This document shows positions 693 through 16,714 of a DNA stretch of 64,000 nt, one piece after another (within the stretch, counting starts at the first letter, position 1; the number at the start of each line of letters is the position of its first letter). The stretch comes from Galbibacter orientalis DSM 19592 (GTDB lineage: Bacteria > Bacteroidota > Bacteroidia > Flavobacteriales > Flavobacteriaceae): the NCBI RefSeq assembly GCF_000260115.1, contig NZ_JH651379.1, forward strand, positions 992,001-1,056,000, in the 5' to 3' direction. The translations under genes and the position numbers were made by a program. The notes beneath the pieces were generated by a model. The model was not told the DNA's origin, did not search any database, and was given only the letters and a program-made list of their open reading frames with translations.

Positions 693-1046
693 ATGAGAAA
701 TGACAAAGAAAATTTTATAGTTAATCACTCATTCAAGTTTTCACTTGCTATTATTCAATTTTCTGAAGAACTAAGAGGATTGTATAAATATGAAATGGCA
801 TCCCAAATTTTTAGATCTGGTACATCTATAGGAGCAAATATTGCTGAAGCACAAAATGCAGAAGGTAAAGCCGATTTTATACATAAGTTTAAAATAGCAG
901 CTAAAGAAGCTGATGAGGTGAAATATTGGTTGAAATTATGTTTAGCGTCTCCTTATTATCCATGTCCAGATGGAATATTATTAGACGATTTGAAATCGAT
1001 AATATTAGTAATAAGTAAAATTATAGCTACGAGTAAAAACAAGTAA
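693..1046 (+). CDS. four-helix bundle protein, S23/IVS family (copy A)
   Basis: A 117-residue protein of the family first found as ORFs in 23S rRNA intervening sequences, which folds as a four-helix bundle and forms pentamers. Its cellular role is unknown; a relative (Avd) serves diversity-generating retroelements. The hallmark is the helix-2/3 segment SIGANIAEAQNAEGKADFI. I start at the ATG at 693; the frame also allows a TTG at 687, which is less likely. It lies between the CoA-transferase subunit genes in the same direction, so it is probably co-transcribed with them. Both flanks are AT-rich word spacers (AATTTGAAAATTTGAAAA before, TTTTCAAATTACC after). The protein is clearly divergent from copies B and C. 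Confidence 0.85.
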   Translation: MRNDKENFIVNHSFKFSLAIIQFSEELRGLYKYEMASQIFRSGTSIGANIAEAQNAEGKADFIHKFKIAAKEADEVKYWLKLCLASPYYPCPDGILLDDLKSIILVISKIIATSKNK

Positions 1047-1084
1047 TTTTCAAATTACCTCATTTACTAATTAACAAATTAATT

Positions 1085-1741
1085 ATGAGTTTAAATAAAG
1101 AACAAATAGCGCAGCGTATTGCCAAGGAAGTTAAAGACGGGTATTATGTAAATTTAGGAATCGGAATCCCTACTTTAGTTGCTAATTATGTACGGGATGA
1201 TATTTCGGTAGAATTTCAAAGTGAGAATGGCGTTTTAGGAATGGGACCATTTCCTTTTGAAGGAGAAGAAGATGCTGATATTATTAATGCAGGAAAGCAA
1301 ACCATTACTACGTTAAAAGGAGCTTCTTTTTTTGATTCTTCTTTAAGCTTTGGGATGATTCGTGGGCAACATGTAGATTTAACTATTCTTGGAGCAATGG
1401 AAGTGGCGGAGAATGGCGACATTGCCAACTGGAAAATTCCTGGAAAAATGGTAAAAGGAATGGGAGGAGCAATGGATTTGGTAGCTTCCGCAGAAAATAT
1501 AATTGTTGCTATGATGCATACCAATCGTGCTGGAGAGTCTAAGTTATTAAAAGAATGTTCGCTTCCGTTAACGGGGGTTAAATGTGTAAAAAAGATAGTA
1601 ACTAATCTTGCTGTTTTGGAGGTAACTAAAGATGGATTTCTATTGTTAGAACGAGCTCCTGGGGTTTCTGTTGATGAAATTAAAAATGCTACAGCTGGGA
1701 GGCTTATTGTTAATGAAAACACGCCAGAAATGGTTTTGTAA
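1085..1741 (+). CDS. scoB: 3-oxoacid CoA-transferase subunit B
   Basis: Beta subunit of the family I CoA-transferase whose alpha subunit is the partial gene at the window start. The motif SENGVLGMGPFP (about residues 47-58) holds the catalytic glutamate that carries the enzyme-CoA thioester intermediate. At 218 residues it is full length for the family. Start ATG at 1085 gives the expected MSLNKEQIAQRIAKEV. It follows the S23-type gene after a 38-base spacer and ends the transcription unit. With the alpha subunit it would let the cell use ketone bodies or branched-chain breakdown products. Confidence 0.93.
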   Translation: MSLNKEQIAQRIAKEVKDGYYVNLGIGIPTLVANYVRDDISVEFQSENGVLGMGPFPFEGEEDADIINAGKQTITTLKGASFFDSSLSFGMIRGQHVDLTILGAMEVAENGDIANWKIPGKMVKGMGGAMDLVASAENIIVAMMHTNRAGESKLLKECSLPLTGVKCVKKIVTNLAVLEVTKDGFLLLERAPGVSVDEIKNATAGRLIVNENTPEMVL

Positions 1742-2104
1742 ATCAATTATTAGGGTTTAACTCCTTGTAGTCTGTCTTATGTTTGCTTAAACTCTCTGTA
1801 TATAAATGAGTTAAATTTATTTTGTTTGAATGCCTACTGTCTGGGCTTACCAAGATAGTGTTAAGAACAGTTTTTTTAAAAGTGCATTTCATCGAATTTT
1901 TATATCTCTATATCCGATAATTCATTATTTATTTTAGATTTGCCACCGTCAAAAAGGGATTATTGTGCTAAAACATATAAAATTTTATTTTGACAACAAG
2001 ATTTGAGAGATTCACAACAAAAATGTGTTTTTCCCAAGGAAGTGTTATAGTTTCATGTTCCTAAAGTCATAAAAATATTACTAACCTACTTAATTATTAG
2101 AATA
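1742..2104. other. non-coding stretch with a TTCATCGA box
   Basis: No convincing gene is seen here. The stretch holds GGTTTAACTCCT near 1754 and TGCATTTCATCGAAT near 1884. Both sequences recur, in the opposite relative order, upstream of the subtilase gene (about 35910 and 35950), so they may be regulatory boxes or remains of an upstream region that lost its gene. Confidence 0.4.
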
Positions 2105-2242
2105 ATGACAGACCATGCTTTAACCTATGAAGACAACCAACAAAGTCAATCATTCTTTAATGTTTTAAGTGCAAATGTTAAAGGAACGATTACATTAATG
2201 AAAAGTTTAATGTTAATAGCCAAAAAACTTTTAATGTTCTAA
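2105..2242 (+). CDS. possible 45-residue small protein
   Basis: A short ATG-to-stop frame reading MTDHALTYEDNQQSQSFFNV and then a basic hydrophobic tail ending KSLMLIAKKLLMF. I do not recognise it. The C-terminal third could form an amphipathic helix. What makes it worth listing is a strong terminator about 45 bases after its stop, which shows that something ends transcription there although the nearest upstream gene ends at 1741. It could equally be a fortuitous frame inside a non-coding RNA or a decayed gene end. Confidence 0.25.
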   Translation: MTDHALTYEDNQQSQSFFNVLSANVKGTITLMKSLMLIAKKLLMF

Positions 2243-2285
2243 ATGCCCCAAAAAAGAACATTTCCCCCACTAGTTTTTGCTAATT

Positions 2286-2319
2286 AAAAAAGAGGTAACA
2301 GTTTTGTTGCCTCTTTTTA
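2286..2319 (+). terminator. rho-independent terminator
   Basis: AAAAGAGGTAACA and TGTTGCCTCTTTT pair with one G-T wobble around a GTTT loop, and the right arm runs into a T tract. It precedes the symporter operon and ends whatever is transcribed from the 1742-2242 stretch. Confidence 0.75.
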
Positions 2320-2429
2320 TATACAATTACCTGTTAAATTGTTAATTTGATAATATTTTAATCTTCAAGAAGTCAAATTTTTAATTTTTTAATAAAAAAA
2401 ATGTATTATTGTTTTTAAAATGATAATAT

Positions 2430-2684
2430 ATGAGTCAGCTTACTAAAGAAAGGTATTGGAAAGAGAATTTAAAATACCTTTTCATCTTACTTTCTATATG
2501 GTTTTTAGTCTCCTTCGGATTTGGAATTATTTTAGTAGACGAGTTGAATAAAATCAAGCTTGGTGGTTTTAAATTAGGCTTTTGGTTTGCTCAGCAAGGA
2601 TCTATTTATGTTTTTATTATTCTGATTTTAATATATGTCGTTTTAATGAATCGATTGGATAAAAAATACAACCTAAACGAATAA
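2430..2684 (+). CDS. DUF4212 protein, small subunit of Na+/solute symporter
   Basis: An 84-residue membrane protein with two predicted transmembrane segments (about residues 17-38 and 50-73). It matches the DUF4212 / TIGR03647 family, found almost always directly before a large sodium:solute symporter. The neighbour at 2692 is exactly that, 7 bases downstream, so the two are one operon and probably one transport complex in the inner membrane. The role of the small subunit is not known; it may aid assembly or stability. Start ATG at 2430 is the only sensible one. Confidence 0.9.
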   Translation: MSQLTKERYWKENLKYLFILLSIWFLVSFGFGIILVDELNKIKLGGFKLGFWFAQQGSIYVFIILILIYVVLMNRLDKKYNLNE

Positions 2685-2691
2685 ACTACCT

Positions 2692-4389
2692 ATGTCAGTT
2701 CAATTACTAACCTATCTACTTGTTGGAATTACCTTTGCGTTATATATTGGAATAGCTATTTGGAGTCGTGCAGGATCTACCAAAGACTTTTATGTTGCTG
2801 GAGGAGGGGTTTCTCCTTTAGCAAATGGAATGGCAACAGCCGCCGATTGGATGTCGGCTGCCTCTTTTATTTCCATGGCTGGAATTATTTCTTTTGCTGG
2901 TTATGATGGATCTGTTTTTTTAATGGGGTGGACAGGAGGTTATGTTTTATTGGCATTATTATTAGCTCCTTACCTCAGAAAATTTGGAAAATTCACTGTG
3001 CCAGATTTCATTGGCGACAGGTATTATTCTAAAACAGCACGTTTAGTAGCTGTGGTATGTGCTCTTTTTGTTTCTTTTACCTATGTAGCTGGTCAGATGC
3101 GGGGAGTGGGAGTGGTTTTTTCTAGGTTTTTGGAAGTAGATGTCAATACTGGGGTTTATATTGGAATGGCAATTGTTTTGTTTTATGCCGTCCTCGGTGG
3201 AATGAAAGGTATTACTTACACCCAAGTAGCTCAATATTGTATTTTAATATTTGCTTTTATGGTTCCTGCAATTTTCATTTCTATTCAAATGACGGGAAAT
3301 CCAATCCCACAATTAGGTTTAGGGGGGCAACTTGCAGATGGAACGTATTTATTAGACAAATTGGATGGACTTCAAGCAGAATTGGGATTTCATGAATATA
3401 CTTCAGGGTCAAAATCCAAAATTGATGTGTTTTTTATTACCGCTGCCTTAATGATGGGAACTGCGGGATTGCCACATGTAATAGTTCGCTTTTTTACAGT
3501 TCCAAAAGTAAAAGATGCTCGTAAATCAGGGCTTTATGCCCTTCTTTTTATAGGAATATTGTATACTACAGCGCCTGCAATTGCAGTTTTTGCTCGTACT
3601 AATTTAATTCAAACAGTGAGTAACCAACCTTATGGGAGTATGCCCGAATGGTTTTCTAAATGGGAAGCTACTGGTCTATTAACTTTTACTGATAAAAATA
3701 ATGATGGCACCATACAATATGTTGCAGATACAACTATTAATGAGCTTGAAATAGATAGAGATATTATGGTGCTCGCCAATCCAGAAATTGCAGACCTACC
3801 AAATTGGGTAATAGCATTATTAGCTGCTGGAGGTTTAGCAGCTGCATTATCTACTGCAGCCGGATTGTTATTGGTAATATCCTCTTCTGTATCGCACGAT
3901 TTACTTAAAAAGATGGTCATGCCCGATATTAATGAGAAACAAGAATTGTGGGCTGCTAGAGGCGCTGCATTAGTAGCCGTTTGTGTTGCAGGATATTTCG
4001 GGATTCATCCACCAGGCTATGTGGCTTCTGTTGTTGCTTTAGCTTTTGGTTTAGCGGCAGCTTCATTTTTTCCAGCTATTGTATTGGGTATTTTTTCTAA
4101 AAGAATGAACAAAGAAGGAGCAATAGCAGGAATGGTTGTAGGACTTGCTATTACCTTGTATTATATTGCTCGCTTCAGATTACATTGGATTGGAACGATT
4201 AATACTTCTGAAGAAAAAGATTGGTGGTTTGGAATTTCACCTGAAGGATTTGGTTCTATCGGAATGATTTTAAATTTTGTTACAGCAATTATAGTATCTA
4301 GATTTACCAAAGCTCCGCCTAAGGAGATAGTTGATATTGTTGAAGATATTCGTATTCCTAGTGGAGCTGGAGAAGCGGTCTCACATTAG
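2692..4389 (+). CDS. sodium:solute symporter (SSS family), VC_2705/TIGR03648-like large subunit
   Basis: A 565-residue inner-membrane transporter of the SSS family, in the branch related to acetate permease ActP. Many hydrophobic segments are visible. The N-terminal region has the family pattern YVAGGGVSPLANGMATAADW. A hydrophilic loop near residues 325-350 contains TDKNNDGTIQYV, which has the spacing of an EF-hand calcium loop. The partner is the DUF4212 gene just upstream. The substrate is inferred to be a small carboxylate such as acetate or pyruvate; this fits the nearby CoA-transferase but is not proven. A weak hairpin (AGCATAA/TTATGCT, 4396-4425) follows the stop and may end the operon. 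Confidence 0.9.
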   Translation: MSVQLLTYLLVGITFALYIGIAIWSRAGSTKDFYVAGGGVSPLANGMATAADWMSAASFISMAGIISFAGYDGSVFLMGWTGGYVLLALLLAPYLRKFGKFTVPDFIGDRYYSKTARLVAVVCALFVSFTYVAGQMRGVGVVFSRFLEVDVNTGVYIGMAIVLFYAVLGGMKGITYTQVAQYCILIFAFMVPAIFISIQMTGNPIPQLGLGGQLADGTYLLDKLDGLQAELGFHEYTSGSKSKIDVFFITAALMMGTAGLPHVIVRFFTVPKVKDARKSGLYALLFIGILYTTAPAIAVFARTNLIQTVSNQPYGSMPEWFSKWEATGLLTFTDKNNDGTIQYVADTTINELEIDRDIMVLANPEIADLPNWVIALLAAGGLAAALSTAAGLLLVISSSVSHDLLKKMVMPDINEKQELWAARGAALVAVCVAGYFGIHPPGYVASVVALAFGLAAASFFPAIVLGIFSKRMNKEGAIAGMVVGLAITLYYIARFRLHWIGTINTSEEKDWWFGISPEGFGSIGMILNFVTAIIVSRFTKAPPKEIVDIVEDIRIPSGAGEAVSH

Positions 4390-4465
4390 TCGCTCAGCAT
4401 AAGAGGTGTTTTTTATTTTTATGCTTTTGTTTAGTTGTGCTATCTTGCTTTAAAGTTTTTACCGA

Positions 4466-5140
4466 GTGAAAAGTAAGCGTATTACTACTAAAACTAAAAA
4501 ACCATGGCCAACAAAAGATGCTATGGAACAGATCTATACATTAAATCTTTGGGGAGGTAATAATGCTGATTATTATTCTGGGGAGGGCTCTCATCGTCCA
4601 GAAATAGTAAAACCTTATATTGAAACTATTCAAAATTTCTTAAAGTCTTTTGATTTTCCCCCTGTGGTATGCGATTTAGGGTGTGGCGATTTTAATGTAG
4701 GGAAATATTTAGTAAAGTACACTAAAAGGTATATTGGAGTAGATATAGTTGAAGGACTTATTAAACGGAATCAAGAAGTTTTTACTCAAGATAATTTAAC
4801 TTTTGAATGTTTGGATATTGCAACCGATAGTTTGCCTACTGCCGATATTGTTTTAATTAGGCAAGTGCTTCAGCATTTATCAAATAAAGAGGTTCAAAGT
4901 ATAATAAGTAAATTATCAGCTTATAAATATGTTATTCTAACAGAGCATCTACCTAACGGTAGTTTTGAGCCCAATAAAGATATTATTTCTGGACAGGGAA
5001 TTCGACTAAAAAAGCAGAGTGGTTTGAACTTATTGATACCTCCCTTCAATTTAAAAATAAAAAAAGAGAAACAATTACTATCAACTTCCTTAAAAGAAGG
5101 CAAAGAGGTTATTGTTACTACTTTATATGAAATGAGTTAA
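4466..5140 (+). CDS. class I SAM-dependent methyltransferase
   Basis: A 224-residue protein with the Rossmann-fold SAM site: motif I VVCDLGCGDFNVGKYL (about residues 68-83) and an acidic residue in YIGVDIVEG at the end of the second strand. The segment TADIVLIRQVLQHL corresponds to motif IV/post-motif. The start used is GTG at 4466, giving a basic N-terminus; an in-frame ATG lies 18 codons in (about 4520). The substrate cannot be told. It stands alone and is followed by a hairpin terminator. Confidence 0.8.
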   Translation: MKSKRITTKTKKPWPTKDAMEQIYTLNLWGGNNADYYSGEGSHRPEIVKPYIETIQNFLKSFDFPPVVCDLGCGDFNVGKYLVKYTKRYIGVDIVEGLIKRNQEVFTQDNLTFECLDIATDSLPTADIVLIRQVLQHLSNKEVQSIISKLSAYKYVILTEHLPNGSFEPNKDIISGQGIRLKKQSGLNLLIPPFNLKIKKEKQLLSTSLKEGKEVIVTTLYEMS

Positions 5141-5197
5141 ATATGTTTTCTTTGAATTTCCACCGAAGTAGTTGATTTTTACTTCCTAACTTTTTTT

Positions 5198-5220
5198 GCA
5201 AGCCGTAGTTGCTTGCTTTT
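5198..5220 (+). terminator. terminator after the methyltransferase gene
   Basis: GCAAGC and GCTTGC pair around a 7-base loop and are followed by TTTT. It abuts the stop codon of the convergent higA gene at 5219. Confidence 0.6.
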
Positions 5221-5521
5221 AAATAATGTTTTTATTTTCGAAATGTTTTATTTCGTTCAGCTCCAATTCTTTCGATTCTTTTTCTTCCTCAATATCAAAA
5301 TCGTCTTGAATTCCAAGCCAGAATTTTGCAGAATTTCCAAAATATTTGCTCAATCGTAAAGCTGTGTCCGCAGTAATTCTGCGATTTCCTTTAATGATTT
5401 CCGAAATTCGGGTTTGCGGAATTTTCAAGTCCTTGGAAAGGCGGTATGCGGTGATTTCCAATGGTTCAAGAAATTCGTAATTCAAGATTTCTCCAGGATG
5501 TACATTTGCTAACTTTCCCAT
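5219..5521 (-). CDS. higA: HigA-type antitoxin, XRE helix-turn-helix
   Basis: A 100-residue protein beginning with HPGEILNYEFLEPL, the usual N-terminus of HigA antitoxins, followed by an XRE helix-turn-helix (about residues 23-77, with ISEIIKGNRRITADTALRLS). It should bind and neutralise the HigB toxin encoded just upstream and repress the shared promoter. The toxin gene comes first, the order typical of higBA, with an 11-base gap. The C-terminal tail is acidic (IEEEKESKELELNEI), which may contact the toxin. Confidence 0.9.
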   Translation of the reverse strand: MGKLANVHPGEILNYEFLEPLEITAYRLSKDLKIPQTRISEIIKGNRRITADTALRLSKYFGNSAKFWLGIQDDFDIEEEKESKELELNEIKHFENKNII

Positions 5522-5532
5522 TTTTATATTTT

Positions 5533-5814
5533 TTAATGATAATCAATTATTGCAACTTCGCTTGCATTTCCTTTTTCCCATACGAATACAATTCGCCACT
5601 GTTTGTTAATCCGAATGCTATAAAATTCGTTTAATTTACCAGTTAGTTTTTCAAGTCGGTTTGACGGGGGAATTCGTAAATCTGTAATATCCTGCGAGTT
5701 ATTCAACATTCTCAATTTTCGACGTCCGAGACTTTGAATTTCAATCGGCATTTTTTTGACTCGCATTCCGTTCCAAATTTGTTCGGTTTCTTTAGAGCCA
5801 AAGGATATAATCAT
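5533..5814 (-). CDS. higB: HigB/RelE-superfamily mRNA interferase toxin
   Basis: A 93-residue toxin of the ParE/RelE superfamily, plasmid maintenance killer branch. The N-terminal MIISFGSKETEQIWNG and the C-terminal YSIRINKQWRIVFVWE are typical of HigB ribosome-dependent RNases. It is expected to cleave mRNA at the ribosome unless bound by HigA. Start ATG at 5814 leaves a short leader that contains a 13-bp palindrome. Frame, length and key basic residues look intact, so the system is probably active. Confidence 0.9.
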   Translation of the reverse strand: MIISFGSKETEQIWNGMRVKKMPIEIQSLGRRKLRMLNNSQDITDLRIPPSNRLEKLTGKLNEFYSIRINKQWRIVFVWEKGNASEVAIIDYH

Positions 5815-5825
5815 AGTTTTGTGTT

Positions 5826-5838
5826 ACGTTACTAACGT
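5826..5838 (-). promoter_or_regulatory. likely HigA operator
   Basis: A perfect 6-1-6 palindrome, ACGTTA C TAACGT, 11 bases before the higB start and just after a TACTTTTA box (complement of 5843-5850). HigA antitoxins bind such palindromes to repress their own operon; the link is inferred from position. Confidence 0.5.
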
Positions 5839-5900
5839 TAAAAGTAAGTATTAAATTTGATTTCTCCAAATGCTGCCTAACTCCTTAAAAAAGTTAATTA

Positions 5901-6047
5901 CTAAACTTTTTTAAGTTTCCCAATTATAAGAAGTCCAGCTCCAATTCCTGTACTTGCTCCAATCCAAAAACCTTCTATATTCATAAAAAAATAAGTTGCA
6001 AGACTTAGAAGAAGAATGATTAATCCTACTATTTGTACTTTAATCAT
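5901..6047 (-). CDS. 48-residue membrane protein
   Basis: A short frame with start ATG at 6047: a first hydrophobic helix (IVGLIILLLSLATYFFM), a turn (NIEGFW), and a second glycine-rich hydrophobic segment (IGASTGIGAGLLIIGKL), ending in basic residues. This two-helix hairpin pattern resembles small flavobacterial proteins often left unannotated. Its function is unknown. It lies between higBA and the repeat element at 6087, on the same strand as both neighbouring operons but probably independent of them. Confidence 0.55.
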   Translation of the reverse strand: MIKVQIVGLIILLLSLATYFFMNIEGFWIGASTGIGAGLLIIGKLKKV

Positions 6048-6086
6048 TTCAATTTATTTTTTTGAAGTAAAAATGTTTGAAACTAA

Positions 6087-6237
6087 AAAAGAGGTTTTTT
6101 GAAAAAGTAATATGTAGTTGTCGAACTGAGCTTGTCGAACTGAGCTTGTCGAAGTTTCACAACTAACCCCAAAAGAATCCCTCGACAAGCTCAGGATAAC
6201 ATTTAGGGTTTATATACTTTTTTAAAAAGCCTCTTTT
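6087..6237. repeat. MITE/REP-like element 1 with 23-bp terminal inverted repeats
   Basis: The ends AAAAGAGGTTTTTTGAAAAA plus GTA (6087-6109) and 6215-6237 are inverted copies with 21 of 23 positions matching. Inside are a 14-bp tandem duplication (CGAACTGAGCTTGT twice) and an inverted copy, TCGACAAGCTCAGG. The left end plus AATATGTAGTTGT recurs in the element at 10383. It lies just after sdhB and may also act as its terminator. Confidence 0.65.
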
Positions 6238-6279
6238 ATATTAATGTATTTAATGCTTTATGTGCTTAATCTGAGGAAT

Positions 6280-7026: not shown

Positions 7027-7058
7027 ATTATTATATGTTGAAAGTTAATGGTTAATAG

Positions 7059-7433
7059 TTAATTGGACTTTGCGTTACTTAAATAGTTAATGTAACCATT
7101 CAATATTTTAATACAATCAATTACCATCAACCTTGTATCTTCATAAGTTTTATTGTCAATATAATTTTCATCAAGCGCCGTAATTATTTGATCTAATATT
7201 CCATATAATGAGCCTCTTGATATCCTGCAAAATTGGGCATTTTCCTTAAAATGAAATCTGCCATAACCCTCTGCTATGTTATGAGTAACCGATCTAGAAG
7301 CCCTTCTCATTTGAGACATAAGTTCAAATTTTTCAAACTTGGGAAAGGTTTTTATAACAGAAGCTATTTTTCTTCTTAACTCTGTTCCTTTAACCCAACT
7401 GTTCAAATCTTCGAAAGTCTTAATATCACTCAT
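7059..7433 (-). CDS. four-helix bundle protein, S23/IVS family (copy B)
   Basis: A 124-residue relative of the 23S rRNA intervening-sequence proteins. Hallmarks are an N-terminal helix starting FEDLNSWVKGTELRRKI, then RRASRSVTHNIAEGYGRF, and a C-terminal helix ending ILNGYINYLS. It lies between sdhA and sdhB, same strand, with 44-base and 32-base spacers, so it must be carried on the sdh mRNA. The downstream spacer is a word repeat (AGTTAATGGTTAATAGTTAA). The protein is intact and its function is unknown. It differs strongly from copies A and C, which argues against local duplication. Confidence 0.87.
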   Translation of the reverse strand: MSDIKTFEDLNSWVKGTELRRKIASVIKTFPKFEKFELMSQMRRASRSVTHNIAEGYGRFHFKENAQFCRISRGSLYGILDQIITALDENYIDNKTYEDTRLMVIDCIKILNGYINYLSNAKSN

Positions 7434-7477
7434 TTTTCATAGAACAAAAATAAAAACGGTTAACAAATAGCAATTAA

Positions 7478-9481
7478 CTATTTATACGAGCGTGTTTTAA
7501 GCTCAATGTTTTTATATTCTAATTCTTCTTTGTGTAATACGGCATCGCTAGGAGCTCCTTTGTATTCCCAAGCGGCAACGTATTTAAAGTTCTCATCGTC
7601 TCTTTTTGCTTCTCCCTCTTCAGTTTGGTACTCCTCTCTAAAGTGTCCTCCACAAGATTCGTTTCGATGTAAAGCATCTTTAGCAAACAATTCTCCTAAT
7701 TCTAAGAAATCTGCTACTCTTAACGCTTTTTCTAATTCGCTATTTTTAGAGTCTGCAGAACCAGGAATTAATACATTTTTATGGAAATCTGCACGTAATT
7801 CCGCTATTTCTTTAATAGCCGACTCTAGGTCTTTGGCATTACGAGCCATTCCACATTTATTCCACATAATTTTCCCTAATTTTTTGTGGTAATGGTCTAC
7901 AGAATGCTTCCCTTTATTGTTAACAAGTTTTGCTATCTGATCTTTTACATTTTTTTCAGCTTCATCAAATTCTGGAGAATCTGTTGGGATTTTTCCAGTT
8001 CTAATATCATCAGCTAAATAGTTTCCAATAGTGTAAGGTAGCACAAAATAACCATCGGCTAAACCTTGCATTAAGGCAGAAGCTCCAAGTCTATTTGCTC
8101 CGTGGTCAGAGAAGTTAGCTTCTCCAGCAGCATAACACCCAGGAATGGTTGTCATTAAATTGTAGTCAACCCAAATACCTCCCATAGTATAATGTACCGC
8201 AGGGTAAATCATCATTGGAGTTTTATATGGGTTCTCATCAACAATTTTCTGATACATTTGGAAGAGGTTTCCGTATTTGTTTTCTACTACTTTCTCTCCT
8301 AATTCTCTTATTTCCTTTTCTGAAGGATTATGATTTCCATGGATAATAGCTTGTTCTTTTCCGTAACGCTCTATTGCAGATGCGAAATCTAGAAATACCG
8401 CTTCTCCAGTTTTGTTTACTCCAAAACCAGCATCACAACGTTCTTTTGCAGCTCTAGATGCAACGTCTCGTGGTACTAAGTTACCAAACGATGGATATCT
8501 TCTTTCTAAGTAATAATCTCTATCTTCTTCTGCTAATTCTGTAGGCTTTAATTTTCCTTGACGAATAGCTTCTGCATCTTCTTTTTTCTTCGGAACCCAA
8601 ATTCTTCCATCGTTACGAAGCGACTCAGACATCAATGTTAATTTTGACTGATGGTCTCCCGAAACAGGAATACATGTTGGGTGAATTTGTGTGTAACAAG
8701 GATTGGCAAAATAGGCTCCTTTTTTATGGATTTTCCATGAAGCTGTTACGTTACTTCCCATAGCATTTGTAGATAGGAAAAATACATTTCCATAGCCTCC
8801 AGAAGCAATTACTACCGCATGAGCCGAGTGGCGTTCTATTTCTCCAGTAACTAAGTTTCTCGCAATAATTCCACGAGCTTTTCCGTCTACAATTACTACG
8901 TCTAACATTTCGTGGCGATTAAAAGATTGGATCTTTCCACGGTTAATTTGACGATTCATAGCTGCATAAGCTCCCAATAAAAGCTGTTGCCCTGTTTGTC
9001 CTTTTGCGTAAAAAGTTCTAGAAACTAAAACCCCTCCAAAAGAACGATTGTCTAACATTCCACCATATTCACGAGCAAAAGGAACTCCTTGCGCCACACA
9101 CTGGTCGATTATGTTAGCCGAAACTTCTGCTAAACGATATACGTTTGCTTCACGAGAACGGTAATCTCCTCCTTTAACAGTGTCATAAAATAACCTGTAA
9201 GTAGAATCTCCATCTCCTTGATAGTTTTTTGCTGCGTTAATACCTCCTTGTGCTGCAATTGAGTGTGCACGACGAGGAGAATCTTGATAGCAAAAAGTTT
9301 TTACATTGTATCCAAGTTCTGCTAATGTTGCTGCTGCAGAACCTCCTGCTAAACCTGTTCCAACAACAATAACATCAATGTTACGCTTGTTAGCAGGGTT
9401 AACTAAGTTAATTTCATTTTTATAATTGACCCACTTATTGGCTAAATCGCCTTGTGGTATTTTAGAATCTAATGTTGCCAT
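7478..9481 (-). CDS. sdhA: succinate dehydrogenase / fumarate reductase flavoprotein subunit
   Basis: A 667-residue catalytic subunit of complex II that oxidises succinate to fumarate with covalent FAD. The N-terminal Rossmann motif [19 protein letters not shown] (about residues 40-58) binds FAD, and [17 protein letters not shown] carries the histidine that bonds FAD. The substrate and capping domain has [15 protein letters not shown], and [19 protein letters not shown] closes the fold. At 667 residues it belongs to the long Bacteroidota type B form. It starts 11 bases after sdhC and is followed by the S23-type gene instead of directly by sdhB. Confidence 0.97.
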
Positions 9482-10152: not shown

Positions 10153-10176
10153 TAGAAATTATTTATTTAATACGTA

Positions 10177-10207
10177 CAAAAGTACAGTACGAATAAGTTA
10201 TTAACAA
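10177..10207 (-). promoter_or_regulatory. sdh operon promoter (Bacteroidota type)
   Basis: Read on the minus strand, TTG (complement of 10205-10207) is followed after 20 bases by TACTTTTG (complement of 10177-10184). This matches the Bacteroidota sigma-70 consensus TTG-N17-23-TAnnTTTG, at a proper distance from the sdhC start. Confidence 0.65.
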
Positions 10208-10382
10208 ACTTTCGTTTCTGTTTTAATCGCAATTTAGAATGAATTTAAAGTAATTGTTGTAAAAATAATCCTTTTCTGACTACAACGTTATATTTACGTA
10301 TAATTACTTAGTTTTTTATTAAAAAAATTAATGATAAGTTTCTAATTAAAGGAGGGATTGTAGAATAGGAACAAAATGAATG

Positions 10383-10625
10383 TGGCTTTCTAAAAAGTAA
10401 TTTGTAGTTGTTAAGCTGATATTTATAGTTTAGATACTTTTTTATTAATGTCCGAGAAAAAATACAAGACGGTTTCGCTATAAGAAAAAAGAACAAAGAC
10501 TAAATATTAACTGTCATAAAATAAGTAGTTTAAAGAAGTAGCCTTACTGAAATCCTTTTTTTAGGTAGTGTCCAATAAATTTCGTTAACTTTTATCGAAC
10601 AATAGTAATACTTTTTAGAAAGCCA
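10383..10625. repeat. MITE-like element 2 with perfect 17-bp inverted ends
   Basis: TGGCTTTCTAAAAAGTA at 10383-10399 is repeated as an exact inverted copy at 10609-10625. The sequence after the left end (ATTTGTAGTTGTTAAGCTGA) resembles the left inside of element 1 at 6087, and TTTAGATACTTTTTTA near 10428 resembles the right inside of that element. No coding frame or target duplication is evident. It fills most of the nearly 500-base gap between sdhC and the lipoprotein gene; I see nothing else there. Confidence 0.6.
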
Positions 10626-10649
10626 TCATCATAATGTTGTAATGTAAGT

Positions 10650-11399
10650 CTATTTATATGAATAATTTACAGTAGCATTGCTTATTTCATCACTGTTTAC
10701 AATAACAGTTTTAGCAAGTATCGGGTATTTATCTTCATCATATGTGTATTTTACTTGTGATGTAAACGAAACAGTACCGGTACTAGCATCTTTAAAAATC
10801 ATTGAAGTAGGGTTGTTGTATGGAATTAATGCTTTTGCTTTAGTTAGAGCTTGGTTTGTAGGTACTAAAGAGAAATTAAGATCGACTCTATCTAATACTT
10901 CTAGAATTCCACCTGCTTCAAGTGTGTAAAAGAAAAAGTTCGGGTTGGAATCATAAGTTATTTCACCATCATAAAATATAGACTCTCCATTATCTTCGCC
11001 GTCATAAACTCTAATTTTAGTAGGATTTCCATTTTTATCATATTCTGTAACTTGTCCTATTTCAAACGCATTATAAGGGGCTTGATAAAACTCGCTTATT
11101 GAAATGTTATCATCAGTATCATTACCAGTAATTGTCTCTAACTTTCCAGAAGTTGAATATTTAAATACCACAGATCCATCTTCATCACTAACAGTATTTA
11201 GTTTTCCATCAGCATCATAACTAAAGGTTGTATTTATACCTTCATCAAGATTGCTATCGTCAATTACCTTAATACTAGTAAGGTATTTCTTTTTAACATC
11301 GTTACCGTTAGTTTCTTTAAACTCTTCTTCACTGTCTTTACTGCATGATGTAGCTAGAGTAATACATGCTAAGAACAGAAGGGTGTTAATTGTTTTCAT
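10650..11399 (-). CDS. secreted lipoprotein of unknown function
   Basis: A 249-residue protein with a lipobox signal peptide (MKTINTLLFLACITLATSCS), so it should be lipid-anchored, probably in the outer membrane. An upstream in-frame ATG at 11444 is rejected because it would bury the signal peptide. The body has repeated FSYDADGKLNTVSDEDG / EYDKNGNPTKIRVYDGED patterns like the YD-type or DUF4595-like lipoproteins of Bacteroidota, which form beta sheets. A TATATTTG box lies about 34 bases upstream (complement of 11433-11440). The substrate or partner is unknown. Confidence 0.75.
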   Translation of the reverse strand: MKTINTLLFLACITLATSCSKDSEEEFKETNGNDVKKKYLTSIKVIDDSNLDEGINTTFSYDADGKLNTVSDEDGSVVFKYSTSGKLETITGNDTDDNISISEFYQAPYNAFEIGQVTEYDKNGNPTKIRVYDGEDNGESIFYDGEITYDSNPNFFFYTLEAGGILEVLDRVDLNFSLVPTNQALTKAKALIPYNNPTSMIFKDASTGTVSFTSQVKYTYDEDKYPILAKTVIVNSDEISNATVNYSYK

Positions 11400-11507
11400 A
11401 ATTATTCTTTGTAAAGTTATATTTATTTTCTTCAAATATAACAAATAATCTATATGGTTGTATTAAAACTTTATACCTAGTTTAACACCAAAAGCATCTA
11501 TTCTTAT

Positions 11508-11515
11508 TATTTTTG
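11508..11515 (+). promoter_or_regulatory. -7 box for the aminopeptidase gene
   Basis: TATTTTTG, matching TAnnTTTG, 22 bases before the start codon at 11538. No clear -33 TTG is present. Confidence 0.45.
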
Positions 11516-11537
11516 GCAAAATTCAAAATAAACAGAG

Positions 11538-12830
11538 ATGAAGTACGATTTAATAGACAGCAATCTTTTTATAAAAAACCGTCAAAAATTTATGGCTCAG
11601 ATGAAGCCTAAAAGTATAGCGGTTTTTAATTCTAATGATATATATCCAATTGGTTCCGATAGTACAATGCCTTTTCAACAAGCTAGAGATTTGTTTTATT
11701 TAAGTGGTGTAGATCAGGAAGAAAGTATTTTGGTTTTATTTCCTGATGCGCATGAAGCTAAGCACAGAGAAATTTTATTTGTTAGGGAAACCAATGATCA
11801 TATTGCGGTTTGGGAAGGAGAAAAACTTACTAAAGAAAAAGCTTTGGAAGTTTCTGGAATTAAAACAACGTATTGGTTGAAAGATTTCGGGAAAGTTTTT
11901 TATGATATTATGACGGAAGCAGCTACTGTATATTTTAATACAAATGAGCATTATCGTCAATCTGTGGAAACAGAAACTCGTGAAGATCGTTTTATTGATT
12001 GGTGTAAAAATAAATTCCCAGCTCATAAATGGGAAAAGAGTAATCAAATATTGCAAGAGTTAAGAGGAACTAAAGAGCCTCAGGAAATAGAATTAATGCA
12101 ACAGGCTTGTAATATTACTGAGAAAGCATTTAAAAGGGTATTGAAGTTTACTAAACCGGGAGTTTGGGAATACGAAATAGAAGCGGAGTTTATTCATGAA
12201 TTTACTCGTAATAGATCTCGCGGTTTTGCATATACTCCTATTATAGCTTCTGGAAATAACGCAAACGTACTTCATTATATTGAAAATAAAATGCAATGTA
12301 AAGAAGGAGAGCTGTTGTTAATCGATGCTGGTGCAGAATACGCCAATTACGCTAGTGATATGACGCGTACCATTCCTGTAAGCGGTAGATTTTCTGAGCG
12401 CCAAAAACAAGTCTATAACGCTGTTTTAAAGGTAAAAAAAGAAGCTACTTCAATGTTAGTTCCAGGAACTATGTGGAAAGAGTATCATGAAGAGGTTGGG
12501 AAATTAATGACGAGCGAGCTTCTTGGTTTAGGATTATTAGACAAAGCAGCTATTCAGAATGAAGATCCTGAATGGCCAGCGTACAAAAAGTATTTTATGC
12601 ATGGAACTAGTCATCATATTGGATTAGATACGCATGATTATGGGCCACTTAAAAAACCGATGCAAGCTAATATGGTTTTCACTGTAGAGCCAGGAATTTA
12701 TTTGCCAGACGAAGGTTTTGGAATTCGTTTAGAAGACGATGTTGTTATTCAGGAGTCTGGAGAGCCTTTTAATTTAATGAGAAATATTCCATTGGAGGTT
12801 GAAGAGATTGAAGATTGGATGAATAAATAA
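11538..12830 (+). CDS. pepP: Xaa-Pro aminopeptidase (M24B)
   Basis: A 430-residue cytosolic metallopeptidase that removes N-terminal residues preceding proline. The N-terminal creatinase-like domain (about 1-165) is followed by the pita-bread domain. Metal ligands are visible: Asp in LLIDAGAEY and SDMTRT, His in GTSHHIGLDTHD, Glu in TVEPGIYLP and RLEDDVVI. Length and motif order are normal for aminopeptidase P. It is monocistronic, with its own -7 box and a hairpin terminator downstream. Confidence 0.93.
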   Translation: MKYDLIDSNLFIKNRQKFMAQMKPKSIAVFNSNDIYPIGSDSTMPFQQARDLFYLSGVDQEESILVLFPDAHEAKHREILFVRETNDHIAVWEGEKLTKEKALEVSGIKTTYWLKDFGKVFYDIMTEAATVYFNTNEHYRQSVETETREDRFIDWCKNKFPAHKWEKSNQILQELRGTKEPQEIELMQQACNITEKAFKRVLKFTKPGVWEYEIEAEFIHEFTRNRSRGFAYTPIIASGNNANVLHYIENKMQCKEGELLLIDAGAEYANYASDMTRTIPVSGRFSERQKQVYNAVLKVKKEATSMLVPGTMWKEYHEEVGKLMTSELLGLGLLDKAAIQNEDPEWPAYKKYFMHGTSHHIGLDTHDYGPLKKPMQANMVFTVEPGIYLPDEGFGIRLEDDVVIQESGEPFNLMRNIPLEVEEIEDWMNK

Positions 12831-12847
12831 AAGTAGTTTTTAACATA

Positions 12848-12867
12848 GAACTCGTTTAAACGAGTTC
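12848..12867. repeat. 20-bp perfect palindrome
   Basis: GAACTCGTTTAAACGAGTTC is self-complementary. It lies 18 bases after the pepP stop and before the terminator hairpin, so it may be part of a two-hairpin transcript end. Confidence 0.5.
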
Positions 12868-12886
12868 ATACTATAAAATTGTTACT

Positions 12887-12938
12887 TTGAGCGTAATCCA
12901 AATGTTTGTAGATTACGCTCAATCTAACAGATTTTTTT
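12887..12938 (+). terminator. hairpin terminator of pepP
   Basis: TTGAGCGTAATC and GATTACGCTCAA pair perfectly over 12 bp around a 12-base loop. A run of seven T follows 9 bases after the stem, which is a little far for a classic terminator. Confidence 0.5.
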
Positions 12939-12954
12939 ATAATAGTATTTGTAA

Positions 12955-13734
12955 ATGAGACTCAACTTTAAAGGAACGGATATTTTTTATGAAGATGCGG
13001 GAAAAGGCTCTGCTGTAGTACTACTTCATGGATTTTTGGAAAACGTTACAATTTGGAATTCTTTAAAAGAAGAGCTTTTAAGTCGCTATCGGGTTATAAC
13101 TATAGATTTATTAGGTCATGGAAAAACAGGCTGTTTGGGATATGTGCATACCATGGAAATGATGGCAGAAACTGTAAAAGCTGTTTTAGATGAGTTAATG
13201 GTTAGGCGTGTTTCTTTAATTGGACATTCTATGGGAGGCTATGTAGCTTTAGCTTTTGCAGAAGCACATCCAGACGATGTAAAAGCTTTGGTGCTAGTAA
13301 ATTCTACAACAAGTGCCGATTCTGAAGTTAAGAAAAAGAACAGGGATAGAGCTATAGATATGGTAAAGCACAACCATAAAAGCTTTGTTCGGATGGGAAT
13401 TGCTAATCTTTTTCGACCTAAAAACCGTAAAATTTTTGCTGAAGAAATAAAAGCTCTAAAAAAGGAAGCCCTAAAAACTCCAGTTCAAGGTATTGTGGCT
13501 GCTTTAGAAGGGATGAAAATTAGAAACGATAGAGAAATATTACTACACTTTACGCCCTTTCAAAAAATGATGATTATAGGGAGGAAAGATCCTGTGTTAA
13601 ACTATGAAGCTTTGATAGAACAAGTAGAAGAAGCGGAGGTGAAAGTAGTAGAATTTCCCGATGGACATATGAGTTTTATTGAAAACAAATCGCAATTCAT
13701 CGATAATATCAAGAAATTTTTGAAAAAAGTTTGA
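12955..13734 (+). CDS. alpha/beta hydrolase
   Basis: A 259-residue alpha/beta hydrolase. It shows the oxyanion-hole motif LLHGFLEN (about residues 24-31), the nucleophile elbow LIGHSMGGYV (Ser about residue 92), a late acidic residue in IIGRKDPV, and the catalytic histidine in FPDGHMSF near the C-terminus. There is no signal peptide, so it acts in the cytosol. The substrate cannot be told; relatives are annotated as esterases or MhpC/BioH-like. The full triad suggests an active enzyme. Confidence 0.88.
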   Translation: MRLNFKGTDIFYEDAGKGSAVVLLHGFLENVTIWNSLKEELLSRYRVITIDLLGHGKTGCLGYVHTMEMMAETVKAVLDELMVRRVSLIGHSMGGYVALAFAEAHPDDVKALVLVNSTTSADSEVKKKNRDRAIDMVKHNHKSFVRMGIANLFRPKNRKIFAEEIKALKKEALKTPVQGIVAALEGMKIRNDREILLHFTPFQKMMIIGRKDPVLNYEALIEQVEEAEVKVVEFPDGHMSFIENKSQFIDNIKKFLKKV

Positions 13735-13784
13735 TAATTAACAGAATTTGTATAAGTTAACACTGCCCAAAATACATAACCTAT

Positions 13785-14021
13785 ATGAAATCCTCTAAAA
13801 CTACAGTCAAAAAAGCACTCTGTTCCGTGTTCGGACATCGCTATGTGGTGTCGAAAAAAATCACTTCCCACATAGTTGAATATCAGTGCAAAACATGTAA
13901 GTGTGAACTTACAACAACCGAAACAGGTCATTTAGATATTTTAACTCCCGAGTGGAGGGAAATAAATGAAACGCTAGCGTATTTATATAAGAAAAGGCGC
14001 GAAGTTCATTCAGTAGTCTAA
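13785..14021 (+). CDS. small CxxC protein of unknown function
   Basis: A 78-residue protein with an early FGHRYV segment and a CKTCKCEL motif (about residues 36-43), which could form a small zinc-binding site with the nearby His. The C-terminal half is helical and charged (PEWREINETLAYLYKKRR). Similar short proteins occur across Flavobacteriaceae, some labelled phage-related, without known function. It follows the hydrolase by 50 bases and is convergent with thiL. Confidence 0.6.
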   Translation: MKSSKTTVKKALCSVFGHRYVVSKKITSHIVEYQCKTCKCELTTTETGHLDILTPEWREINETLAYLYKKRREVHSVV

Positions 14022-14036
14022 GGTTTACTTCGGTTC

Positions 14037-15095
14037 TTATTCTTTTTCGTTTTCCTCAAAAGAATTCCAGCCTCTAGCTTGGAGTGGTATTTTTGTATTG
14101 GCACGTGTTATTAAATGCATGCCCTCACTCTCTTGCGTCATATGTCCGATTATAGACAAATGCGGATTGGCTTTTATTTTTGGAAAATCTTCTTGAGCTA
14201 CGGTAAATAATAGTTCGTAATCTTCACCACCACTTAAAGCTACAGTTGTACTGCTCAGGTTAAATTCTTCAGAAGTAGATATTACTTGTGGATCTAGTGG
14301 AATTTTATCTTCATATAAATTACAACCTACTTTAGATTGCTTGCATAGATGGATAATTTCTGATGATAATCCGTCGCTAATATCTATCATAGCGGTTGGT
14401 TTTACCTCAAGTTTTTTCAATAACTCAGGAATATCTTTTCGAGCTTCTGGTTTAAGTTGGCGTTCAATAATGTAGGAATACATGTCTAAATCAGGTTGAT
14501 TTTGAGGATTCACCTTAAAAACTTCCTTCTCACGTTCTAGAATTTGAAGTCCGAGGTATGCGCCTCCTAAATCTCCAGAAACCACTAGCAAATCGTTAGA
14601 TTTTGCCGTATTTCGGTAAACAATATCTTCTTGGTTAGCTTCGCCTAATGCTGTAACGGTAATTAAAAGTCCTTTGTTAGAAGATGTTGTGTCGCCACCA
14701 ATTAAATCCACTTCGTATAAATCGCATGCGTGTTTAATGCCAGCATATAATTCTTCTAAAGCTTCTAGTGGAAAGCGATTAGAAACAGCAATAGAAACTG
14801 TAATTTGTGTTGCTTTGGCGTTCATAGCATACACATCGGAAAGATTTACCATTACCGATTTATAGCCTAAATGTTTAAGCGGCATATAACTAAGGTCGAA
14901 ATGTACATTTTCAACCAGTAAATCGGTTGTTACAATGGCTTTTTTATCTTTAAAATCGATTACAGCGGCATCATCACCAATCCCTTTTATGGTAGATGAA
15001 TGTTTTATTTCAAAATTTTTGGTTAGATGTTCTATCAAACCAAACTCTCCTAATTGAGAAATTGATGTGCGTTGTGGATTTTTATCTTCTATCAT
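14037..15095 (-). CDS. thiL: thiamine-monophosphate kinase
   Basis: A 352-residue ATP-dependent kinase making thiamine diphosphate, the active cofactor, from thiamine monophosphate. It has the PurM/AIR-synthase-like fold: the N-terminal GEFGLIEHLTKNF, the Mg/ATP site GIGDDAAVIDF (about residues 41-51), the second metal-binding segment LIGGDTTSS, and GGEDYELLFT towards the C-terminus. Length is normal. It stands apart from other thiamine genes and has the long word-repeat spacer upstream. Confidence 0.95.
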   Translation of the reverse strand: MIEDKNPQRTSISQLGEFGLIEHLTKNFEIKHSSTIKGIGDDAAVIDFKDKKAIVTTDLLVENVHFDLSYMPLKHLGYKSVMVNLSDVYAMNAKATQITVSIAVSNRFPLEALEELYAGIKHACDLYEVDLIGGDTTSSNKGLLITVTALGEANQEDIVYRNTAKSNDLLVVSGDLGGAYLGLQILEREKEVFKVNPQNQPDLDMYSYIIERQLKPEARKDIPELLKKLEVKPTAMIDISDGLSSEIIHLCKQSKVGCNLYEDKIPLDPQVISTSEEFNLSSTTVALSGGEDYELLFTVAQEDFPKIKANPHLSIIGHMTQESEGMHLITRANTKIPLQARGWNSFEENEKE

Positions 15096-15107
15096 GCTGC
15101 AAAGATA

Positions 15108-15830
15108 GTTAAAGTTGAAAGTTATGAAGTTTGTAAAGTGGAAAAGTTGAAAGTTTGTAAAGTAAAAAAGTTATGCTGTTATGGAGTTACGCTGTTACAA
15201 AGGAAAAAACTGCTTACTGAACACTTTTTTATTGAAAGATTGAAGGATTGAAGGATTGAAAAAGTCGGGAGTCCGAAGTCTGAAGCCGAAGTAAAAGTTA
15301 TGCTGTTATGTTGTTACGATGTTACAAAGGAAAAAGTTAAGAAGTTATCGAGTTATGTTGTTACGATGTTTTAGGAAAGTTTTTTACCTTCTGCATCCTG
15401 TCTCCCGACTTCGGACTTCCGTCTTCATTTCATTTCCACTTTACAAATTTATAACTTTGTCCCTCTGCATCTTTGAACCTTTGCCACTTTGAACCTTTGA
15501 AGGATTGAAAAAGTCGGGAGTTGGAAGACAGAATGCAGTGTTCAGTATGCGTACATTTTCAATCAAGAGTCAAGAATGTAAAAAAAATGTATTCTTATTC
15601 TTTTGAAAATCTTGTAAACTACAAACCATAAACAATAAACCAAAAACCTACTGCTTATTGAAAGATTGAAGCATTTCATTACTTTGCCTCTTTGCCTCTT
15701 TGCCTCTTTGTCTCTTTGTCCCTTTGAGTTAAAAAGTTAAGAAGTTATCGAGTTACGATGTTTCAGGAAAGTTTTTTTACCTTCTGCATCCTGTCTTCTG
15801 AACACTGCCTACTGCCTACTGCAAATTCAG
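15108..15830. repeat. word-repeat spacer between thiL and the suf genes
   Basis: This gap of nearly 900 bases carries no gene. It is built from reiterated short words: a long imperfect direct repeat at 15331-15403 and 15731-15796 (AAAAAGTTAAGAAGTTATCG onward to TTCTGCATCCTGTCT), two copies of GAAGGATTGAAAAAGTCGGG (about 15247 and 15495), and five to six 8-bp units of CTTTGCCT from 15682. The words TTTGAACCTTTG and GTTACGATGTTAC also appear in other gaps, some as reverse complements. Confidence 0.75.
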
Positions 15831-15947
15831 CTTTCAAAACGGGCTTTAAGAAAAGTTTGTAAGGAATTACAGAAAATCATAACAAATCTCTATGATTGGA
15901 TATAATATAATAATGCGAATAAGTATGGTAAATCGTGCCGAATATCT

Positions 15948-15955
15948 TATTTTTG
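15948..15955 (+). promoter_or_regulatory. -7 box of the suf genes
   Basis: TATTTTTG, 29 bases before the start of the A-type carrier gene. It fits TAnnTTTG; the -33 element is not clear. Confidence 0.45.
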
Positions 15956-15983
15956 TAAACTATTTTGAAAGAACAGTTTTATT

Positions 15984-16313
15984 ATGATAAAAGTTTCTGA
16001 AACAGCGAAAAAGAAAATATCAGAGTTAATGTCGGACGATGGTTTCGATGTGGCTCAGGATTATGTGCGCGTAGGAGTGAAGAGTGGTGGTTGTAGCGGA
16101 TTATCATACGACTTAAAATTTGATAAAAGTAAAGCCGAAGAAGATAAAATGTTTGAAGACAATGATGTAAAAATCATTGTAGACAAAAAAAGCTTTTTAT
16201 ACTTAATCGGAACCGTTTTGGAATATTCTGGCGGTTTAAACGGAAAAGGTTTTGTTTTTAACAATCCAAATGCACAAAGAACCTGCGGTTGTGGGGAGAG
16301 TTTTTCGTTGTAG
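15984..16313 (+). CDS. sufA: A-type Fe-S carrier (HesB/IscA/SufA family)
   Basis: A 109-residue scaffold/carrier that passes Fe-S clusters to target proteins. The three conserved cysteines are present: one in GGCSGLSYDL (about residue 37) and two in the C-terminal TCGCGESF. It opens the suf gene set, followed by an S23-type gene and then sufBCD. Because A-type carriers are hard to subdivide, the symbol (sufA versus iscA/erpA) rests on context. Confidence 0.92.
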   Translation: MIKVSETAKKKISELMSDDGFDVAQDYVRVGVKSGGCSGLSYDLKFDKSKAEEDKMFEDNDVKIIVDKKSFLYLIGTVLEYSGGLNGKGFVFNNPNAQRTCGCGESFSL

Positions 16314-16322
16314 AATAAGTTA

Positions 16323-16714
16323 ATGAGTGAAAGTAAAAAAATAGGAAATATAACTTTTGAAGATTTAGAAGTTTATAAACTAACTCTTGCATTTACCATT
16401 AAAATCTTTGACTTGCTAAACGAAAAACAATTTGAGAGGGAGTTTTCTTTCAAAGATCAATTAAAAAGAGCTACACTTTCAATTTCCAATAATATTGCAG
16501 AAGGATTTGAAAGAGAAACAGACAAAGAATATATACGTTTTCTATATTTCTCCAAAGGATCTGCGGGCGAAGTGAGAAATATTTTAAACATATTAAAAGA
16601 AACGAATTATATAAATGAAGATAAATGGTTACTATAAAGGGTGAAGTTACCATAATATCAAAACAGCTTTCAAATTACATTAGGTATATTAAAAAGCGAA
16701 GTGATGTTGTTTAA
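16323..16714 (+). pseudogene. four-helix bundle protein, S23/IVS family (copy C), frameshifted
   Basis: The frame from 16323 gives 104 residues with the family pattern ITFEDLEVYKLTLAF and ATLSISNNIAEGFERE but stops at TAA 16635-16637, too early. Reading on in another frame from 16637 gives KGEVTIISKQLSNYIRYIKK and a stop at 16714, exactly the missing last helix. A single-base loss or two-base gain near 16635 therefore broke the gene (or is a sequencing error). The intact protein would have about 130 residues. It sits in the suf operon between the A-type carrier gene and sufB, in the same direction. Confidence 0.75.

Follow-up and report, generated by a model that had tools for sequence, protein, structure and literature searches.

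Why do small genes of one family stand again and again between the genes of unrelated metabolic operons? The question is raised by a stretch of 64,000 nucleotides (nt) of the Galbibacter orientalis DSM 19592 genome (contig NZ_JH651379.1, positions 992,001 to 1,056,000; hereafter the window), in which three genes of the S23 family, copies A, B, and C, separate scoA from scoB, sdhA from sdhB, and a sufA-like gene from sufB, respectively (Table 1). The initial annotation, made by a model from the letters and ORF translations alone, had suggested either a selfish or mobile small-gene family or a regulator acting on the host mRNA. The answer proposed here, to which we give slightly better than even credence, is that S23 elements are operon counterparts of the intervening sequences (IVSs) of rRNA genes, i.e., that each consists of a gene with its own word arms, rides on operon mRNA, and is mainly a passenger. 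What is new is that the short word spacers are recognized as inverted heptad or octad arms tied to the S23 gene.

The placement of the three genes is borne out by profile searches: PF05635 matches copies A, B, and C with 76, 100.4, and 96.3 bits (cut-off 33.8), TIGR02436 with 85.3, 93.1, and 86.6 (cut-off 24), and Pfam identifies the neighbors as CoA transferase subunits (A), SdhA and SdhB domains (B), and an Fe-S_biosyn gene and SufB (C). As had been noted, each copy lies on the strand of its host operon and carries the NIAEA or NIAEG motif. Nothing but S23 is found between the host genes, and no transposase of its own (window open reading frames, ORFs, and Pfam). Copy C had been drawn as a gene running to 16714; its last helix does extend to approximately that position, but the ORF is not intact, since comparison of frames and relatives places a frame break at the stop at 16637. 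Word-type spacers had been described for A and B. The words exist, but they form an inverted pair, which had been overlooked: AATTTGAAAAT/ATTTTCAAATT around A and AGTTAATTG/CAATTAACT around B.

S23 Genes Within Operons

The G. orientalis genome contains ten S23/PF05635 genes, and 10/10 lie between co-directional operon genes, compared to 33/57 window ORFs that are co-directional with both neighbors; lodging in operons is therefore not a matter of chance. Besides the three window slots, these are cysD/cysN, rfbB/rfbA, argB/argE, thiolase/acyl-CoA dehydrogenase, fadB/thiolase, trpD/trpC, and folE/cysS, with gene names outside the window read from translated ORFs. Two copies are frame-broken, namely C and the one in folE/cysS (copy J).

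The repeated, directional lodging that the initial annotation had described is real and general. Among 161 S23 ORFs of relatives, 159 have both neighbors in view, and 154 of these are co-directional with both; in 29 further loci from a phylum search the count is 22/29. The 154 co-directional copies represent 57 neighbor pairs, most often fadB/fadA (27), sdhA/sdhB (19, a group enlarged by an extra search with copy B), and thiolase/acyl-CoA dehydrogenase (10). Neighbors were taken from a simple longest-ORF caller (at least 80 amino acids), which makes gene starts approximate, and sampling favors high-scoring matches, with 60 of 100 further family loci taken. The set labeled Bacteroidota includes two rows from other groups (L151, L153), and two loci, L150 and L013, are each counted as two ORF pieces. 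The former, an sdhA/sdhB S23 gene of a Salinimicrobium metagenome-assembled genome (MAG) split over two ORFs, is another decaying copy. A Riemerella plasmid record (L252) has an Fe-S assembly gene, S23, and an apparent sufB start in sequence, the slot of copy C.

A search across the family, as had been recommended, found PF05635 in 94/119 genomes. The domain is present in 6/7 genomes of the genus, G. orientalis included (0 to 11 copies), in 116/148 of the phylum, and in 40/80 and 45/121 genomes of the phyla to which a Nitrospira MAG and a Chloroflexota MAG belong, respectively.

Word Arms Around the S23 Gene

The spacers on either side of the S23 gene are an inverted pair of arms, built of tandem words of 7 nt or, less often, 8 nt. 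Pairing was assessed in copies whose ORF has 100 amino acids or more, whose neighbors are both co-directional, and whose flanks measure 15–300 nt (122/161 copies); a second arm set comprised flanks from 20 nt up (118 copies). The duplex of a copy's own flanks has a mean energy of −22.8 kcal/mol versus −11.6 kcal/mol for flanks mis-paired between copies (n = 122), and own pairing ranks in the best 5% for 64/122 copies. Relative to dinucleotide shuffles, own arms reach a median z of −2.6, with z < −2 in 64% as compared to 11% of mis-paired arms; with mononucleotide shuffles, z < −2 is reached by 81% of the 118 S23 genes versus 20% of 66 other co-directional genes. The arms of the trpD/trpC copy match perfectly over 23 nt (GATTGAAGAATTGAAAGATTGAA).

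The period is visible as base identity at lag 7, which amounts to 0.458 in 5′ arms (n = 143) and 0.479 in 3′ arms (n = 123), and persists at lag 14 (0.42 and 0.44) and lag 21 (0.39 and 0.41), the expectation being approximately 0.31; in 118 other gaps, the lag-7 value is 0.338. Copy by copy, the best period is 7 nt in 76/118 and 8 nt in 25/118. The arms also have a polarity: the 5′ arm is G-rich and C-poor and the 3′ arm the reverse in 117/122 copies, versus 29/66 control genes. A promoter was matched in just 1/136 of the 5′ gaps (by a crude consensus).

These marks recur in a Nitrospirota set (31 copies), in Chloroflexota (32), in one Ignavibacteriales genome (15), and on cyanobacterial plasmids (12). 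Lag-7 identity in these four groups is 0.38 to 0.49, as opposed to 0.26 to 0.29 at other lags. In the same order, own arms have z < −2 in 55, 47, 40, and 75% of copies and mis-paired arms in 6, 3, 0, and 25%, and the polarity is seen in 29/31, 27/32, 11/15, and 10/12. Co-directional lodging is found in 21/29 copies of the Nitrospirota set, 13/14 of the Ignavibacteriales genome, and 9/12 on the cyanobacterial plasmids. Copies that are antisense to both neighbors keep the polarity relative to S23 in 11/13 cases, so the arms go with the S23 unit rather than with the operon around it. On a Nostoc plasmid, for instance, an S23 gene lies antisense between two ribonucleotide reductase genes, and its AGTAGGG and CCCTACT arrays pair over approximately 35 nt. 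Judged from sequence, five bacterial groups thus have inverted word arrays as arms, with words of 7 or 8 nt; the arms are G-rich on the 5′ and C-rich on the 3′ side and match within a copy.

In one locus of the Nitrospirota set (L300, 36–1923), the end of a CRISPR array is occupied by an S23 gene that has word arms: 19 exact repeats (36–1393) are followed by S23 (approximately 1486–1842) and by a repeat with 3 mismatches (1887–1923).

Filled and Empty Sites

When the ten G. orientalis sites are compared across the seven genomes of the genus, 23/70 combinations hold an S23 gene or a broken copy, so that a site occupied in one congener may be empty in another. The number of filled genomes is 2 for sco, 1 for sdh, 4 for suf, 3 for cys, 2 for rfb, 1 for arg, 3 for thiolase/acyl-CoA dehydrogenase, 4 for fadB/fadA, 2 for trp, and 1 for folE. 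Two empty gaps contain S23 remnants (suf in congener G006, E = 6e-5; fadB/fadA in G003, E = 3e-4), and a third remnant is doubtful (E = 0.003). In the S23-free congener G002, the gap measures between 14 and 74 nt at every one of the ten sites. Hairpins (z < −2) are found in 16/30 empty gaps of 40–260 nt, although in none of the three that G002 contributes, compared to approximately 6% of 17 co-directional gaps in the window; part of the hairpins in empty gaps are other repeats. Some empty slots of congeners (L040, L054, L055) are occupied by different repeats, such as those around GAGCGCAGTCGAGA or TCATCCTGAACTCGTTTCAGGATC. Comparison of empty and filled sites, by which a target duplication had been expected to show, yielded no clean duplication and no exact insertion boundary, as the congener gaps are too diverged and the copy in the CRISPR array has ragged ends.

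Evolution of the S23 Copies

The S23 protein is under purifying selection (median dN/dS 0.126 by Nei-Gojobori; 155 same-site pairs, more than 60% identical, dS below 2.5). On a tree of 144 proteins, which has few columns and many weak forks, the site changes 30 times (111 rows, 22 sites), with 21 changes as the least possible, whereas 40 shuffles of the sites give a mean of 78.6 and a lowest value of 74. S23 clades thus track their site, which implies that movement is slow. The slots rfbB/rfbA, fadB/fadA, and trpD/trpC each hold more than one S23 lineage, and similarity of words reaches 0.159, above all 4999 permutations, for the 14 different-site pairs whose closest S23 proteins differ by less than 40%. 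From genus to genus, copies keep to their site, are missing in many cases, and seldom move. As far as sequence comparison can tell, selection constrains the protein, congeners differ in which sites are filled, clades are bound to sites across genera, and close relatives elsewhere carry similar words. The mobility suggested by the initial annotation is therefore supported by patchy sites and several lineages per slot, but not as fast mobility.

Congruent vertical inheritance, which had been named as the outcome that would speak against mobility, is seen in part at sdh only: there, S23 and host proteins correlate with r = 0.62 (SdhA–SdhB control 0.80, n = 15), whereas at fadB/fadA r is 0.06 (host–host control 0.44, n = 19). 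A cruder first run gave r = 0.29 for sdh (73/999 permutations as high) and 0.02 for fadB/fadA.

It is above all at sdh that S23 might act as a host regulator, which would bind the arms in the operon mRNA, tune translation or stability of the neighboring genes, and regulate itself. The fidelity of clades to their operon, the selection on the protein, and the interchangeability of sdh arms from different genera (see below) could be explained in this way as well. We nevertheless regard a host regulator as rather unlikely, given the patchy presence, the 57 unrelated neighbor pairs among 154 copies, the different S23 lineages in one slot, the 13 copies of other groups that run antisense to the operon, the one inside a CRISPR array, and the fadB/fadA copies that do not track their hosts.

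Word Arrays Without an S23 Gene

Word arrays also stand alone, both in the window (Table 1) and in the rest of the genome, where mixed clusters (GATTGAAR with GACTTCS words, e.g., C1:331216-331516) are scattered over G. orientalis (G000) and nearly absent from congeners. GATTGAARGATTGAA has 115 matches in G000 and 0, 0, 0, 1, 1, and 0 in G001 to G006; GCCTAAAGCCTAAA has 38 in G000, 29 in G001, and 0 in the other five genomes of the genus. Single matches aside, both words are limited to genomes in which a matching S23 copy is present, yet G003 has a cysD/cysN copy whose arm holds just part of GCCTAAAGCCTAAA. The claim that S23 spreads its own word in trans was dropped, as a third word, which should have been common in G004 to G006, proved abundant in G000.

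Such arrays might be generic repeats that gather in permissive gaps of these genomes, with S23 merely sharing the gaps. Heptad periods in control flanks, S23-free arrays in the same genome, and the other repeats in some slots would fit. However, the polarity is tied to S23, in other groups too, own-arm pairing is far above that of other genes, and word similarity follows S23 similarity in the closest site pairs, which renders generic repeats improbable. A transposon-like DNA unit, whose ends would be the arrays, with S23 binding them in an accessory role and the mover enzyme encoded elsewhere, is more improbable still: inverted terminal arrays, presence and absence at sites, and the similar words of close S23 relatives at different sites (see above) would suit it, but S23 has no catalytic domain (Pfam scan; copy B model), no clean target duplication was seen in the diverged congener gaps or at the CRISPR-array copy, movement is slow, and reverse transcriptase, the sole host enzyme examined, does not track S23 in the genus and was rejected as mover (no RVT_1 match in S23-bearing G001, G003, and G005; two matches in S23-free G002).

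The S23 Protein and a Possible Mechanism

The AlphaFold2 model of copy B is a four-helix bundle (pLDDT 95.8). The closest solved structures are XCC0516 (2gsc, E = 5.3e-7) and BT_0352 (2rld, E = 7e-4), followed by Avd (4dwl, TMq 0.75) and a ribonucleoprotein of diversity-generating retroelements (8ub7, TMq 0.76). The title of the XCC0516 paper mentions five four-helix bundles. A count of approximately four words per arm was considered as a match to such a pentamer and rejected, as the run measure does not discriminate (40/56 controls). The median isoelectric point of S23 is 8.9. The Avd-like fold, the basic charge, and the anatomy of the arms suggest that S23 binds nucleic acids.

If S23 elements are counterparts of IVSs, the following sequence of events can be envisioned. 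The element sits in the gap between co-transcribed genes, and read-through of the host operon would carry transcription across its gene. In the mRNA, the arms may then pair and loop out the S23 frame, which is probably cut away by RNase III, by analogy with the 23S rRNA IVS of the same gene family. With the frame looped out or excised, the insertion would do next to no harm to the host operon. The protein, which is basic and similar to Avd, probably binds RNA (or DNA) at its own word; this might serve upkeep of the element and perhaps its own expression, and loss of the gene may leave a hairpin scar. Both word binding and RNA processing are inferences.

Several observations weigh against this account. 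A copy's own pairing beats all 60 mis-pairings in just 28/122 copies. Among copies of one site, own arms do pair better on average than foreign arms (−19.9 versus −14.3), but own pairing ranks among the best 10% in 14/60. At sdh, own (−14.9) and foreign (−14.5) arms are interchangeable, a result that would also fit words conserved at this site. The spacing left outside the stem, 15 nt, is hardly narrower than the 20 nt of shuffles, and loop-out geometry was dropped as proof; the tighter 13 nt of the 55 best-paired copies is partly an effect of the method. The window copies are weakly armed overall: in the mis-pairing test the own arms of A rank in the best 5% and those of B, for which an internal start was used, do not, and the pairing of C is reduced to 6 bp. 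Among control flanks, 17/56 show a period too, 13 of these of 7 nt. Co-directional lodging is weaker outside Bacteroidota, with 18/32 in Chloroflexota. The trend between words and proteins over all 1257 site pairs is non-significant (119/999 permutations). Finally, the third word did not bear out the expectation on words in trans, with 25 matches in G000, 0 in G001, G002, G004, and G005, and 1 each in G003 and G006.

Comparison With Known Systems

S23/IVP proteins have been described from rRNA intervening sequences since 1993 (reference cited in PMC3936711), and their function is given as not known in PMC4990558. S23-bearing IVSs of 23S rRNA, such as the one in helix 45 of Coxiella, have complementary ends and are excised by RNase III (PMC4990558). 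The operon copies share with them the gene family, a unit of approximately 430 nt, and complementary ends around the ORF. That they show little sign of a promoter of their own and have arms that would form a stem, the plan of an S23-bearing IVS, is what suggests calling them operon counterparts. They differ in their location between protein genes or in other transcripts instead of rRNA, in arms made of tandem heptads, and in purifying selection on the ORF, which is described as decaying in Coxiella (PMC4990558). The copies of the window and its relatives lie between protein genes, and no rRNA was detected in the 40 loci of other groups to which the Rfam scan was confined. A stem around the ORF is found family-wide, but is weak in the window copies, with C nearly without one.

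Heptamer repeats are the second point of comparison. PMC4679880 describes TAACTGA repeats in five Bacteroidetes as well as in Beggiatoaceae and cyanobacteria, and PMC4692102 describes GGGAATC or GGGGA(C/T)T repeats; the role of such repeats “remains to be elucidated” (PMC4692102, PMC4679880), and they are presented as direct repeats without a known reader. Like these, the S23 arms are tandem intergenic arrays with a 7-nt period, although a quarter of the arms in the Bacteroidota set favor 8 nt (25/118), and TAACTGA-type words occur in the arms of two Chloroflexota copies (L330, L331). The link between S23 and heptamers covers S23-flanking arrays only. The terms “S23” and “four helix” do not occur in the text of PMC4679880, nor does “four helix” in that of PMC4692102. 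Among the literature matches listed, which include few subscription journals, no title or start of an abstract links S23 to heptamer repeats or reports lodging in metabolic operons.

Homology of Avd to PF05635 was noted earlier (PMC10053308). In spite of the shared fold, copy B scores 15.2 with the Avd model (cut-off 80), and the three S23-bearing genomes named above lack an RVT_1 match. From cas loci, PMC3936711 lists eighteen 23S_rRNA_IVP genes, with cmr3 and cmr2 as the neighbors in one example, and ascribes to them a CRISPR-Cas-associated function; here, they appear as a case of general operon lodging. On cyanobacterial plasmids, S23 genes lie between cas6 and cas4 in two genera and between cmr2 and cmr3 (L245, L246, L249).

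Table 1. Positions of S23 copies, their host genes and arms, and free-standing word arrays in the window.
Position	Strand	Feature	Remarks
24..668	+	scoA-like CoA transferase subunit, host gene 5′ of copy A	PF01144, 219.6 bits
674..686	+	Copy A 5′ word arm ATAATTTGAAAAT	11 bp complementary to 3′ arm
693..1046	+	S23 gene, copy A	PF05635 76 bits; TIGR02436
1047..1058	+	Copy A 3′ word arm TTTTCAAATTAC	
1085..1741	+	scoB-like CoA transferase subunit, host gene 3′ of copy A	PF01144, 169.4 bits
6280..7026	-	sdhB, host gene 3′ of copy B	PF13085 and 4Fe-4S models
7035..7068	-	Copy B 3′ word array CAATTAACTATTAACCATTAAC... (gene's strand), overlaps S23 stop codon	16/21 matches at distance 7
7059..7433	-	S23 gene, copy B	PF05635 100.4 bits; AlphaFold2 four-helix bundle, pLDDT 95.8
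7471..7479	-	Copy B 5′ word arm AGTTAATTG, overlaps sdhA stop codon	9-nt inverted match with 3′ arm
7478..9481	-	sdhA, host gene 5′ of copy B	PF00890, PF02910
15096..15983	.	Mixed cluster of numerous word arrays, no S23 gene	
15984..16313	+	SufA-like Fe-S assembly gene, host gene 5′ of copy C	PF01521
16323..16637	+	S23 gene, copy C, frame-broken; last helix in other frame to ~16714	PF05635 96.3 bits
16710..16725	+	Copy C 3′ words TTTAACTCTTTAACTT; 5′ arm nearly lost	
16747..18192	+	sufB, host gene 3′ of copy C	PF01458
33448..33528	.	Free-standing (GCCTAAA)n array between convergent ORFs; word also in 3′ arm of cysD/cysN copy	

Elsewhere in the window (5219-5814, minus strand), two small ORFs resemble a HigB/HigA-type toxin-antitoxin pair (RelE-like and helix-turn-helix, as read from translations).

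Implications

Two old puzzles, the function of S23/IVP proteins and the role of heptamer repeats, may be one. A wider and more tentative possibility, which we hold with less than even confidence, is that S23 proteins are phylum-spanning, nucleic-acid-binding pentamers, each with a private hepta- or octanucleotide word, and that gene and arms form a self-maintaining element in the transcripts of others; the heptamer repeats of cyanobacteria, Beggiatoaceae, Xanthomonas, and Bacteroidota would then be its arms, scars, and free-standing targets. A link between S23 and words would provide each S23 protein with a candidate ligand, its own word array, and thereby make the function of the family testable, and the S23 genes in cas loci would become an instance of general lodging. 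Framed small genes in operons suggest a widespread, overlooked kind of genetic passenger, and they call for caution: a small gene that is kept in an operon need not belong to its pathway.

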